A stretch of DNA of 64,000 nucleotides from Halovivax limisalsi (GCF_023093535.1 NZ_CP095757.1:3658001-3722000); one strand, 5' to 3'; counted from the stretch's first letter, positions 15,175 through 47,802 are shown. The notes: a model not told the origin generated them from the sequence alone. Program-made: numbers and translations.

Positions 15175-15248
15175 GCCGCCTTAGCTCAGACTGGGAGAGC
15201 ACTCGACTGAAGATCGAGCTGTCCCCGGTTCAAATCCGGGAGGCGGCA
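15175..15248 (+). tRNA. tRNA-Phe (GAA)
   Basis: Acceptor stem GCCGCCT (15175-15181) pairs with AGGCGGC (15241-15247), with discriminator A at 15248. The D arm TAGCTCAGACTGGGAGAGCA, the anticodon loop ACTGAAGAT with GAA, and the T arm CCGGTTCAAATCCGG are all present. CCA is not encoded. The 3' end from the T arm onward is repeated five more times downstream, so this gene is the integration target of the adjoining elements. Confidence 0.95.
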
Positions 15249-15282
15249 TTTCTGCTGCGAGCAATCCGCGAGCAGCAGAAAT
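15248..15282 (+). other. hairpin directly after tRNA-Phe
   Basis: ATTTCTGCTGC (15248-15258) pairs perfectly with GCAGCAGAAAT (15272-15282), an 11-bp stem with the 13-base loop GAGCAATCCGCGA. It begins at the tRNA discriminator base. Related hairpins with paired base changes occur at 17172-17206 and 17304-17338, and a looser one after tRNA-Pro. It may be a 3' processing or termination structure, or an arm of an integration site. Confidence 0.7.
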
Positions 15283-15360
15283 GGAAACCGGACGGATTCT
15301 GAACCCTGCAAGTCGCAGCCCGGAAAGCGACCGCAGGGAGCAACCCGGAACGTCTTGCTT

Positions 15361-15384
15361 CGGTTCAAATCCGGGAGGCGGCAT
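15361..15384 (+). repeat. partial tRNA-Phe 3' end, copy 2
   Basis: GGTTCAAATCCGGGAGGCGG plus CAT repeats the T arm and 3' acceptor strand of tRNA-Phe without the rest of the gene. This is what site-specific integration into a tRNA 3' end leaves behind (an att core). It lies about 135 bases after the intact copy. A short hairpin (GACCG with CGGTC) follows near 15391-15413. Confidence 0.75.
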
Positions 15385-15507
15385 ATTCTGAGATCAAGAC
15401 CGTGAGCGTAGCGAGCGGTCGCAGATCGAAGAAACGACGCCGACCGGGTTTGAAGTAAACGAGCCCAACCCGCGCAGGCCGGAGGCCGAGCAGGAACGTC
15501 TCGGCGT

Positions 15508-15529
15508 GGTTCACAATCCGGGAGCCACA
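15508..15529 (+). repeat. partial tRNA-Phe 3' end, copy 3 (degenerate)
   Basis: GGTTCACAATCCGGGAG is a variant of the tRNA-Phe T arm with one extra base (TTCACAATCC for TTCAAATCC), followed by CCACA instead of GCGGCA. The sequence upstream (GAACGTCTCGGCGT) is shared with the copy at 17282, so they come from related elements. It is the last copy before the ATPase gene. The AT-rich stretch from 15660 to 15715 probably holds that gene's promoter. Confidence 0.65.
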
Positions 15530-15737
15530 ATCATACTGCGGTTCGAATGCCAGAGAGCGACGATCTCGGTTCTCGACGTTCTCTCACCCTCCGATCGCCA
15601 ACCGTCCAGCCGATAGGCGGACCGCTGTACTTCGAGTACCGGATGCTCCGTGGATGGGGATTAGTAAAAACGGAATTAGTAAAATGACGATTTAGATAAT
15701 CGGCAGCATTATTACGAGCAAAGACGAACGGCGGTAC

Positions 15738-17138
15738 ATGTCTCACCCGCGCTTTATCGACCGCGAGGACGAACGCTCCCTCCTCGAATCGCGGTTCGAG
15801 AGCGACAGAGCCGAGTTGATCGTCCTGTACGGCCGCCGGCGACTCGGCAAGAGCGCACTCGTTCGTGAAGCGGTTCGCGGCCGTCAGGACGCCGTCTACT
15901 GGCAGGCGACAGAGGAGACACCGGAGGTGCAGCTTGCGGACTTTGTCGCCGCTGCCAGTGAGACGTTTCCAGTCATTGAGGACATACAGCGCGACTGGGA
16001 AGCGCTGCTTCGGGCGCTGGGTCGCCAGGACGCAGTCGTCGTACTCGACGAATTTCCCTACCTCGTCGAGTCGGATGACGCACTTCCCTCAAAGCTTCAG
16101 CGCGTCTGGGACACGCACTTAGAAGAGACGGGCACGTCGCTGGTGCTTGTCGGGTCGTCGATCAGCATCATGGAAGACAAGGTCCTCACCGGTGGCAGTC
16201 CGTTGTATGGCCGACGGACCGCAACGATCGACCTCCCGCCACTCGATCTGGCGGACGCACGGCAGTTCTATCCCGACGACGATCCGGATAGCGTCATCAG
16301 GGCCTGGGGTATCTTCGGGGGAACGCCGTACTATCTCCAGGCGGTGGACCCGTCTCGCTCGCTCGCCGAGAACGTCCAATCACAGATCCTCTCGGAACAT
16401 GGCGTCCTCCACAACGAGCCGGAGTTCCTGTTACGAACGGAGTTCGGGATTCGTGAACCGCAGACGTACTACACGATTTTGCGTGCGATCGCGACCGGGA
16501 AACGGGCGGCCAACGAAATCGCGGACTTCGCTGGTGTCGACTCGAACGCGCTTGGATCGTATCTCTCGAAGCTTCGGCGTCTCAGACTCATCGAACGGGA
16601 CATTCCCGTGACTGCGAACCCGAATTCGACGCGGAAGAGTCGCTACCGACTGAGAGAGCCGTTGTTCCGATTCTGGTTCCGGTACGTCTACGGTCAACAG
16701 GGCAAGCTCGCACAGCTCGGTAATGACGCATACGAGCAGGTAGTCGATCCGACGTTCAACGACTACATGGGGACGATGTTTGAGCAGGTCTGTCAGAATG
16801 CGCTACCGTCGGTACTACCTAAGACCTACCAGGGGATCGGCTACTGGTGGTATCAGCGACACGAAATCGACGTCGTCGGACTCGCAAGCGACGGAACGCT
16901 CGTGGTTGGCGAATGCAAGTACACCAGCCGGAAGATGACCGAAGGCGACCTGTCTGACCTCGAACGAACTGCGTCACAGGTTCGGTGGACACCACCGAAC
17001 GGGGCCGATCGAGAACAGCACTACTGTTGTTTCTGTCGCGCCGGGTTTTCCGACGACCTGAAGCAAGTCGCTGCGGATCGATCGGACGTATCGCTCCTCA
17101 CGCCTGCGGACATCGTACCGGGTGACGGTACCGAGTGA
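15738..17138 (+). CDS. archaeal ATPase, AAA with DUF234 C-terminus
   Basis: A 466-residue P-loop ATPase of the archaeal family. Walker A is YGRRRLGKSALV near residue 35, Walker B is VVVLDEFPYLV near residue 98, and LVLVGSSISIM looks like sensor 1. A winged-helix segment (ANEIADFAGVDSNALGSYLSKLRRLRLIERDIP) follows, then a DUF234 / nuclease-like domain with EIDVVGLASDGTLVVGECKY, whose E-D-ExK pattern resembles PD-(D/E)XK nucleases. Such ATPases are abundant and mobile in archaea; the biological role is unknown. It is flanked by tRNA-Phe 3' fragments and its stop lies 10 bases before copy 4, so it looks like the only cargo gene of an integrated island. Confidence 0.8.
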   Translation: MSHPRFIDREDERSLLESRFESDRAELIVLYGRRRLGKSALVREAVRGRQDAVYWQATEETPEVQLADFVAAASETFPVIEDIQRDWEALLRALGRQDAVVVLDEFPYLVESDDALPSKLQRVWDTHLEETGTSLVLVGSSISIMEDKVLTGGSPLYGRRTATIDLPPLDLADARQFYPDDDPDSVIRAWGIFGGTPYYLQAVDPSRSLAENVQSQILSEHGVLHNEPEFLLRTEFGIREPQTYYTILRAIATGKRAANEIADFAGVDSNALGSYLSKLRRLRLIERDIPVTANPNSTRKSRYRLREPLFRFWFRYVYGQQGKLAQLGNDAYEQVVDPTFNDYMGTMFEQVCQNALPSVLPKTYQGIGYWWYQRHEIDVVGLASDGTLVVGECKYTSRKMTEGDLSDLERTASQVRWTPPNGADREQHYCCFCRAGFSDDLKQVAADRSDVSLLTPADIVPGDGTE

Positions 17139-17148
17139 GGTGTGTCAT

Positions 17149-17174
17149 CCGGTTCAAATCCGGGAGGCGGCATT
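17149..17174 (+). repeat. partial tRNA-Phe 3' end, copy 4
   Basis: A perfect copy of the tRNA-Phe T arm and acceptor 3' strand, from CCGGTTCAAATCCGGGAG through GCGGCATT. With the intact gene at 15225-15250 it brackets the ATPase and forms the clearest attL/attR pair of the array. Confidence 0.75.
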
Positions 17175-17206
17175 GCTGTCGCGAACAATTCGTGAGCGAC
17201 AGCGAT
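17172..17206 (+). other. covarying hairpin after copy 4
   Basis: ATTGCTGTCGC (17172-17182) pairs with GCGACAGCGAT (17196-17206), again 11 pairs (one T-G) and a 13-base loop, GAACAATTCGTGA. Compared with the hairpin after tRNA-Phe, three stem positions have changed on both sides so that pairing is kept. Confidence 0.7.
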
Positions 17207-17281
17207 GGAAACCCGAGCGAATTTGAATCAGACGAGTCGCAGCCCGCGCAGGCCGGAGGCCGAGCAGGAACGTCTCGGCGT

Positions 17282-17305
17282 GGTTCACAATCCGGGAGGC
17301 GGCAT
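17282..17305 (+). repeat. partial tRNA-Phe 3' end, copy 5
   Basis: GGTTCACAATCCGGGAGGCG followed by GCA carries the same TTCACAATCC variant as copy 3. It is followed by a third hairpin (17304-17338) with ten pairs, one G-A mismatch and a 13-base loop. Confidence 0.7.
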
Positions 17306-17403
17306 TTCTGGTGCGAGCAATTCGCGAGCAACAGAGATGGAAACCGGACGGATTTGAAGGAGAGAACACGCAGCGCGAGCGGAGCGAGCGACCGTGTTCG
17401 CGT

Positions 17404-17426
17404 GGTTCACAATCCGGGAGGCGCCA
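17404..17426 (+). repeat. partial tRNA-Phe 3' end, copy 6 (outer end)
   Basis: GGTTCACAATCCGGGAGGCG then CCAC is the last recognisable copy and probably marks the outer boundary of the island. The preceding stretch GAGCGGAGCGAGCGACCG belongs to the same repeated unit type. Confidence 0.6.
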
Positions 17427-47310: not shown

Positions 47311-47597
47311 GAATAGACGCATCTGAACAATGTTTCGGTATAAGACATTACCATTGTCAACACAAACGCGCCGTAATTCAAGACATAGGTACCGCAGTTG
47401 CGACGTGGTTACGAATCAGCCGGCCGTCGAGTTCGACACTCTTGCCGAAAACCTTCGATTGAATAGTCTAGACCGGCGGTTACGCGAATATTTCCAGAAA
47501 TCGGTGTAGTTATCCAATCCAATTTGTTTATATTCTGAATAGGGGCCGCGGATTTGGCCCACGCCGGGATGCTCCAGCTCGCCCCACTCAGTTCGCA

Positions 47598-47672
47598 GTT
47601 TCGCCGCTCACATTCGCGGTTCTCACTCCGTTCAGAACCACGTCTCCTTCGGCTGTGCGGGCGTACGACTCA
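47598..47672 (+). repeat. inner copy of the island direct repeat
   Basis: Near-identical to 42572-42645 (GTTTCGCCGCTCACATTCGC and following, with a few changes). It lies about 60 bases outside the tRNA-Pro 3' end and, with the other copy, marks the ends of the island. Confidence 0.7.
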
Positions 47673-47693
47673 TTTTCAAACCGTGCGCTTTCA

Positions 47694-47728
47694 ATGGCTG
47701 CTGCTCACGACTCGCTTACAGCAGCAAT
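47694..47728 (-). other. hairpin directly after tRNA-Pro
   Basis: Read on the minus strand, ATTGCTGCTG pairs with CAGCAGCCAT (one T-C mismatch) around a 15-base loop containing AAGCGAG and CGTGAG. It starts two bases after the tRNA-Pro discriminator and resembles the hairpins after the tRNA-Phe 3' ends. Confidence 0.55.
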
Positions 47729-47729
47729 A

Positions 47730-47802
47730 TGGGACCGCGCGGATTTGAACCGCGGTCACGGGCACCCAAGGCCCGAAGTATACCAGACTAACCCACGGTC
47801 CC
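47730..47802 (-). tRNA. tRNA-Pro (TGG)
   Basis: On the minus strand GGGACCG (from 47802) pairs with CGGTCCC before the discriminator A at 47730. The anticodon stem CGGGC/GCCCG encloses the loop CTTGGGT with anticodon TGG. The T arm is GCGGTTCAAATCCGC. CCA is not encoded. A CTTTACG box lies about 27 bases upstream. The gene is the integration target of the island at lower coordinates. Confidence 0.93.

Follow-up and report, generated by a model that had tools for sequence, protein, structure and literature searches.

A structured, gene-less repeat behind the tRNA genes of haloarchaea that appears to use tRNA gene ends as landing sites

Integron arrays and CALINs with attC sites have been reported in archaeal MAGs (PMC9668308), in a paper whose main text does not contain the word Halobacter-. 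In haloarchaea, the elements that integrate at tRNA genes by means of SNJ2-type or HF2/HSTV-2 integrases have been reviewed (PMC8371274). Other described sequences that invite comparison include the short palindromic repeats of the REP/REPIN and MITE types, and tRNA 3′ trailers and tRNA-linked ncRNAs. Here, we describe a repeat unit of Halovivax limisalsi (GCF_023093535.1) and its relatives that shares features with each of these. The analysis followed up a 64,000-nt window of this genome (NZ_CP095757.1:3658001-3722000), within which the positions below are counted. Behind a tRNA gene, each unit is made up of two hairpins (HP1 and HP2) and a copy of tRNA nt 53-73.

As in integrons and CALINs, the units form tandem arrays behind a fixed site. 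The likeness to attC is one of principle: the site lies at the end of the unit, its arms are paired, a folded single strand would rebuild a double-stranded site, and the fold is conserved more than the sequence, as the covariation of HP2 indicates. Within a genus, there is also evidence that the proximal end has gained or lost units, as in integrons. Unlike in integrons, the site is the tail of a host tRNA and the fixed end is the tRNA gene, and whereas cassettes usually hold an ORF, the units hold none. With the SNJ2/HF2-type elements the units share the tRNA 3′ end as target and a tail copy, as a direct repeat, at the far border. However, they are only 100-160 bp long, carry neither an integrase nor any other gene, always have their identity block at nt 53-73 and contain two covarying hairpins, and the viral and plasmid att regions that were examined hold no unit. 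REP/REPIN sequences and MITEs are likewise short, non-coding, palindromic and present in many copies per genome, but the units are tied to tRNA 3′ ends and duplicate the tRNA tail, several unit-rich genomes have no RAYT/Y1, and terminal inverted repeats as in MITEs were not noticed in the units by eye. Position and strand are those of tRNA trailers and tRNA-linked ncRNAs, whereas the units are patchy, tandem and mosaic between tRNA types, persist away from the tRNA and have no Rfam match. No description of them was found in the open-access literature, and an earlier one elsewhere is possible; the units appear to be a repeat not reported before, with tRNA gene ends as its landing sites. The unit is a structured, non-autonomous repeat.

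The array in the window lies on the plus strand and is headed by tRNA-Phe (GAA) at 15175-15248 (ARAGORN; Rfam RF00005, 65.5 bits), whose 3′ tail (nt 52-73; 15227-15248) is copied at every unit border as direct repeat D3. HP2 was located with R1, a covariance model built from 19 units of this genome. The first unit comprises HP1 (15248-15282), HP2 (15294-15372; R1 66 bits, E 3.6e-12) and a tail copy identical to the tRNA tail (15362-15383; D3 100%). The HP1 region of the second unit (15384-15445) is of another sequence type, with a GA/GTA-loop hairpin at about 15401-15421, and is 83% identical to the first unit of another array (L105); its HP2 (15446-15519; R1 37.3 bits, E 6.8e-6) is partly decayed and is followed by a degenerate tail copy (15508-15526). 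An ATPase_2/DUF234 gene (15738-17138, plus strand; Pfam PF01637, PF03008) then stands between two tail copies; it is a guest in the tRNA-Phe array, outside any unit. A second identical tail copy (17151-17172; D3 100%) opens the second half of the array, which consists of a third unit (HP1 17172-17206; HP2 17219-17293, R1 55 bits, E 9.1e-10; tail copy with an extra C, TTCACAATCC, at 17282-17304) and a fourth (HP1 17304-17338; HP2 17350-17415, R1 63.6 bits, E 1.2e-11), and ends with the last tail copy (17404-17426).

The original prediction had placed a hairpin with an 11-bp stem and a 13-base loop behind tRNA-Phe and two of the tail copies, and HP1 is indeed found at 15248 (copy 1), 17172 (copy 4) and 17304 (copy 5). 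Relative to shuffled sequence, folding of 15248-15283 gives z = -5.8 (-5.75) as RNA and -4.7 (-4.72) as DNA, the hairpin of copy 4 (17172-17206) gives -5.5 as RNA, and that of copy 5 (about 17304-17338) is weaker (-2.8, RNA). The 11-bp stem is real, but the 13-base loop is actually GA, 2 bp, a 5-nt loop and GA, that is, a tandem G.A motif. The three paired changes claimed for copy 4 relative to copy 1 are all there (15251/15279, T-A to G-C; 15255/15275, C-G to T-A; 15256/15274, T-A to C-G), and a fourth compensatory double change (15261/15269, G-C to A-T) lies inside the supposed loop. One further pair becomes G-T and none is broken (P = 1.7e-4 against random placement of the same changes). 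At copy 5 the hairpin is present but has no compensatory change, and the equivalent of 15255/15275 is broken to G.A. The looser hairpin proposed behind tRNA-Pro (TGG; 47730-47802, minus strand, ARAGORN) also exists, as part of a decayed unit (47541-47729, minus strand) recognized by its sequence and tip motif, with HP1 at 47694-47729, a remnant of the tip hairpin at 47623-47633 and a decayed tail copy at about 47541-47560; it is not matched by the family model R1. What had been missed is the longer second hairpin, HP2, and the order-wide distribution of the units, in which HP1 forms only the first half.

This architecture was derived by inspecting what follows each of the 41 tRNA genes found in the genome and by folding the sequence between tail copies. 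At least 21 of the 41 are followed by units, which stand alone or recur in tandem every 100-160 nt or so, invariably share the strand of the tRNA and begin at its 3′ end; a short T run opens many of them. In HP2, the 5′ arm reads as the reverse complement of the neighbouring tRNA's T arm (e.g. GGATTTGAA); after it come a 5-bp helix, a T.T mismatch, two C-G pairs, an internal loop and an inner hairpin of the form GA / 2 bp / GNA / 2 bp / GA, and the 3′ arm is the T-arm part of the tail copy, itself a copy of the last 21 nt of the tRNA. The unit cores (219 distinct, 60-180 nt) are gene-less and too short for the usual cassette genes. Decayed or truncated units stand behind tRNA-Gly(CCC), tRNA-Met and tRNA-Pro(UGG).

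Both arms follow the local tRNA. Among units at tRNAs whose T arm differs from the common GGTTCAAATCC, to which the comparison was limited, the HP2 5′ arm is a better match to the local T arm in 34 cases and to the common one in 3, with 9 ties. When 221 tail copies were compared with their own tRNA, identity began sharply at nt 53, with 4% mismatches there versus about 70% just upstream, and extended to nt 73. The tail copy retains the acceptor half as well, although a complement of the acceptor strand in the linker is not tracked (mean rank 0.43).

Conservation of the fold is evident in both hairpins. HP2 was compared in 112 distinct sequences taken from relatives: pairing holds in 96.2% of cells, but in only 47-65% once the partner is shifted by one base. 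Cells changed on both sides number 190, compared with 54 ± 5 after shuffling, and the covariation score of 0.334 (0.133 when shuffled) was reached by none of 500 shuffles. One pair of the 5-bp helix occurs as C-G (47), A-T (38), G-C (14) and T-A (4). The HP2 alignment was fitted to the model and is biased towards it; units parsed by hand agree. For HP1, a set of 32 sequences picked by loop motif and not by outer-stem pairing has 61 double-changed cells versus 20 ± 4 in shuffled data, and again no shuffle in 500 reaches the score. The fold is under selection in both hairpins, and the original prediction of a structure kept by compensatory change is thereby borne out on the covariation analysis that it had called for. 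Recent duplication alone, which it had named as another possible source of the pairing, is excluded because the same fold, in other sequence, follows many tRNA types across the order. Its further proposal, that the hairpin serves more than tRNA maturation, also holds: since about half of the tRNAs of this genome and some whole genomes do without the hairpin, HP1 is not a simple part of maturation, and the unit acts as a separate, gene-less element. The hairpin's assignment to the att site of a mobile element is partly supported.

The structure belongs to the tRNA-sense strand, as judged from wobble pairs at the T-arm end, GA motifs and tip loops. At the T-arm end of HP2 there are 53 G.T cells and one A.C; because the tRNA dictates most of the tail side, the contrast between G.T and other mismatches is informative there. 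The 5-bp helix has no such asymmetry (4 G.T, 4 A.C), and that of HP1 is weak. G.A tandems and GNA tips are found on the tRNA-sense strand only. Structured RNAs usually favour GNRA tetraloops, but the HP2 tip is a C(GNA)G triloop in 71 of the 112 sequences and GNRA in none. GNA loops on two G-C pairs are known as extra-stable DNA mini-hairpins (PMC4686876). These tips therefore lean towards single-stranded DNA, while being compatible with RNA as well, and sense-strand features do not alone tell the two apart. The tip motif is no common feature of this DNA at large: it occurs four times in the window, three times inside a unit.

R1 matches 36 places in this genome; among 61 relatives, 55 have matches, as many as 38 in a single genome. 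In a phylum-wide sample, 40 of 43 genomes of the order have matches, as against none of 203 others of the phylum. The members of the order with no R1 match are G037, G044-G046, G050 and G053, some of which are small or incomplete genomes. A tRNA gene lies within 1.5 kb in 28 of the 30 best R1 loci. An exact-pattern search of 84,980 genomes returned 22 places, all in Halobacteria and in genera including Haloarcula, Halorubrum, Natronomonas, Halorhabdus and Halobacterium, and the exact patterns of two inner modules had no match in IMG/VR. Rfam covariance models at gathering score recognized the tRNA itself only and provided no family for the units; matches below the cut-off (sok, P10 and others) were taken as chance.

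Comparison of related loci indicates turnover of whole units. The tRNA-Phe gene is identical in at least 30 genomes, and the sequence behind it differs, with no unit, one of several types of unit, or up to five units. Two genomes of the same genus (loci L087 and L088) share a unit that is 93% identical over 150 nt; it is the first in L087 and the third in L088, where two extra tRNA-proximal units precede it, so whole units have been gained or lost beside the tRNA. Likewise, an empty locus (L104) and one with a single unit (L111) have a common flank behind the tRNA or the tail copy, respectively. Part of the presence and absence of units could reflect loss via homologous recombination between tail copies, and arrays often alternate two unit types, as tandem amplification would give. 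Mosaicism extends across tRNA types. For the 89 units whose inner module has a close match, the best match lay in another genome, at a different tRNA in 59 cases and at the same one in 11, which are raw counts, with comparisons of the former kind also being more numerous. Whole units at different tRNA types can be aligned at about 80%. An apparent 100% match between "Asp" and "Gly" units proved to be an artefact of two neighbouring tRNAs. Judging from these sequence comparisons, the units are probably mobile. Neither excision circles nor junctions were observed.

Two arrays hold larger inserts between tail copies, namely an integrase element in a tRNA-Gly array (L117, 955-3884; G029) and a methyltransferase insert in a tRNA-Tyr array (L116, 772-2565; G026). 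In both, the left tail is preceded by a unit, whereas the right tail continues into a longer copy of the tRNA, which fits the att site of the guest itself. This is the pattern to be expected from recombination of the guest with an array tail instead of the tRNA. The inserts have no HP1/HP2 ends. They look like later guests that landed on array tails, for which the arrays look like substitute attachment sites. The notion that units had been copied to both sides of the guest was dropped in favour of insertion at the array tail. The integrase of L117 is related to those of HF2 and HSTV-2; it had no match in IMG/VR, and the att regions of its relatives in phages and plasmids are without a unit. 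With R1, the surroundings of the HF2, HSTV-2 and HRTV-17 integrases, and of those of two plasmids, gave no match. Among viruses and plasmids whose integrase is directed to tRNAs, those read closely do have the tRNA tail. Tyrosine recombinases (PF00589) are encoded in 60 of the 61 genomes, the exception being a 59% complete genome, and genomes richer in units do not have more of these genes (Spearman -0.22, P 0.13).

The reading that we tentatively favour, at somewhat less than even chances, is that of a non-autonomous unit inserted at tRNA 3′ ends, the folded sense strand of which rebuilds a T-arm site, and which is moved in trans by tyrosine recombinases. The tRNA-sense strand would fold into HP1 and HP2 and, because the HP2 5′ arm is complementary to the host tRNA T arm, one strand of the unit would suffice to rebuild a double-stranded T-arm site. 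As single-stranded DNA, this folded strand may be the recombination substrate, and the unit would perhaps be moved, as with integron attC, by tRNA-directed tyrosine recombinases that integrated elements provide in trans. A broader version, in which an integron-like system operates on tRNA genes throughout the order, with gene-less cassettes, a rebuilt T-arm site, tyrosine recombinases in trans and a target set by the arm, is rather unlikely; if true, it would be categorically new. The main rival, that the unit works as RNA, is possible though on the unlikely side. As a pre-tRNA trailer, it would affect termination, 3′ processing or stability through folded HP1 and HP2, or be released as a small RNA, and HP2 would in addition mask the T loop of the tail copy from being taken for a tRNA. 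A trailer would fit the constant strand and start at the tRNA 3′ end, unit borders that coincide with the tRNase Z cleavage position, the sense-strand wobble pairs and the T run that opens many units, but not the whole genomes and the half or so of tRNAs that do without a unit, nor the array that persists 17.5 kb from its tRNA (tRNA-Tyr, L113). The acceptor half of the tail copy, conserved without a tracked partner, and tips that are GNA triloops and never GNRA also speak against it, and T5 runs are not clearly enriched behind arrays (0.43/kb, versus 0.34/kb inside).

It is improbable that the arrays are scars or decoys, that is, integration remnants kept as substitute landing sites that spare the tRNA gene, with pairing being secondary. 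For such a function the tail alone would be enough, and two covarying hairpins and a tRNA-fitted arm would be superfluous. The tRNA-Tyr element of this genome, moreover, seems to have used the tRNA itself, although the guests of L116 and L117 sit at the array tail and not at the tRNA, and the ATPase gene of the window likewise lies between tail copies. Across 47 unit-bearing genomes, integrase genes are slightly fewer where units are more numerous, as decoys might predict, in a correlation that is weak and ignores phylogeny (rho -0.32, P 0.03). Paired changes could also arise without selection, if template switching in replication perfects imperfect palindromes, and inverted repeats with a copied T arm are a natural substrate for this process. 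We consider such a mutational origin very improbable because template switching would repair unpaired motifs, yet the tandem G.A, T.T, CAG/AC loops and GNA tips stay unpaired at fixed places across the families of the order; the presence of the same inner module at different tRNAs would also be unaccounted for. Scarcely credible is a retroelement or an IS200/IS605-RAYT (REP-like) element, despite the short, structured, gene-less form and precise insertion of the unit and its hairpins and guide-like arm, which recall IS200/IS605. A reverse transcriptase was found in only 1 of the 61 relatives, and neither this genome nor six others with at least 20 units (two of the six incomplete) have the Y1 transposase (IS200/IS605, RAYT). 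Retro- and RAYT-type movement was rejected on these grounds for present-day genomes.

The units bear on how tRNA genes turn into integration hot spots and on whether folding of single-stranded DNA guides recombination in archaea. In many haloarchaea, a conserved structured element that is unnamed in Rfam would follow about half of the tRNA genes. The pieces of tRNA found behind haloarchaeal tRNAs, which are usually interpreted as prophage scars, are in many cases the borders of units. The many natural variants also offer a system for studying co-evolution between a nucleic-acid fold and tRNA sequence.

Several loci depart from the standard arrangement. A weak HP2 match (34.6 bits) at G000:C1:3778595-3778649 has no tRNA gene detected nearby and may be an orphan or displaced unit. 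At tRNA-Met (L114, G000:C1:1757735), the unit ends in the middle of HP2 before a foreign-looking, AT-rich stretch, and a second exact copy of the tail is absent from the genome. The tRNA-Tyr array (L113, G000:C1:3288692-3306658) stands apart from its tRNA, further downstream, because of a large insert that is probably an integrated element. Tail copies commonly have an extra base, TTCA(C/T)AATCC, as at 17282-17304, 17404-17426 and 15508-15526 in the window and in 14 distinct HP2s of the loci. Two HP2s have an extra C in the opposite arm instead (GGATTCTGAA); in either case one base would bulge, at the same place in the helix. The extra-base variant recurs with many inner types of HP2.
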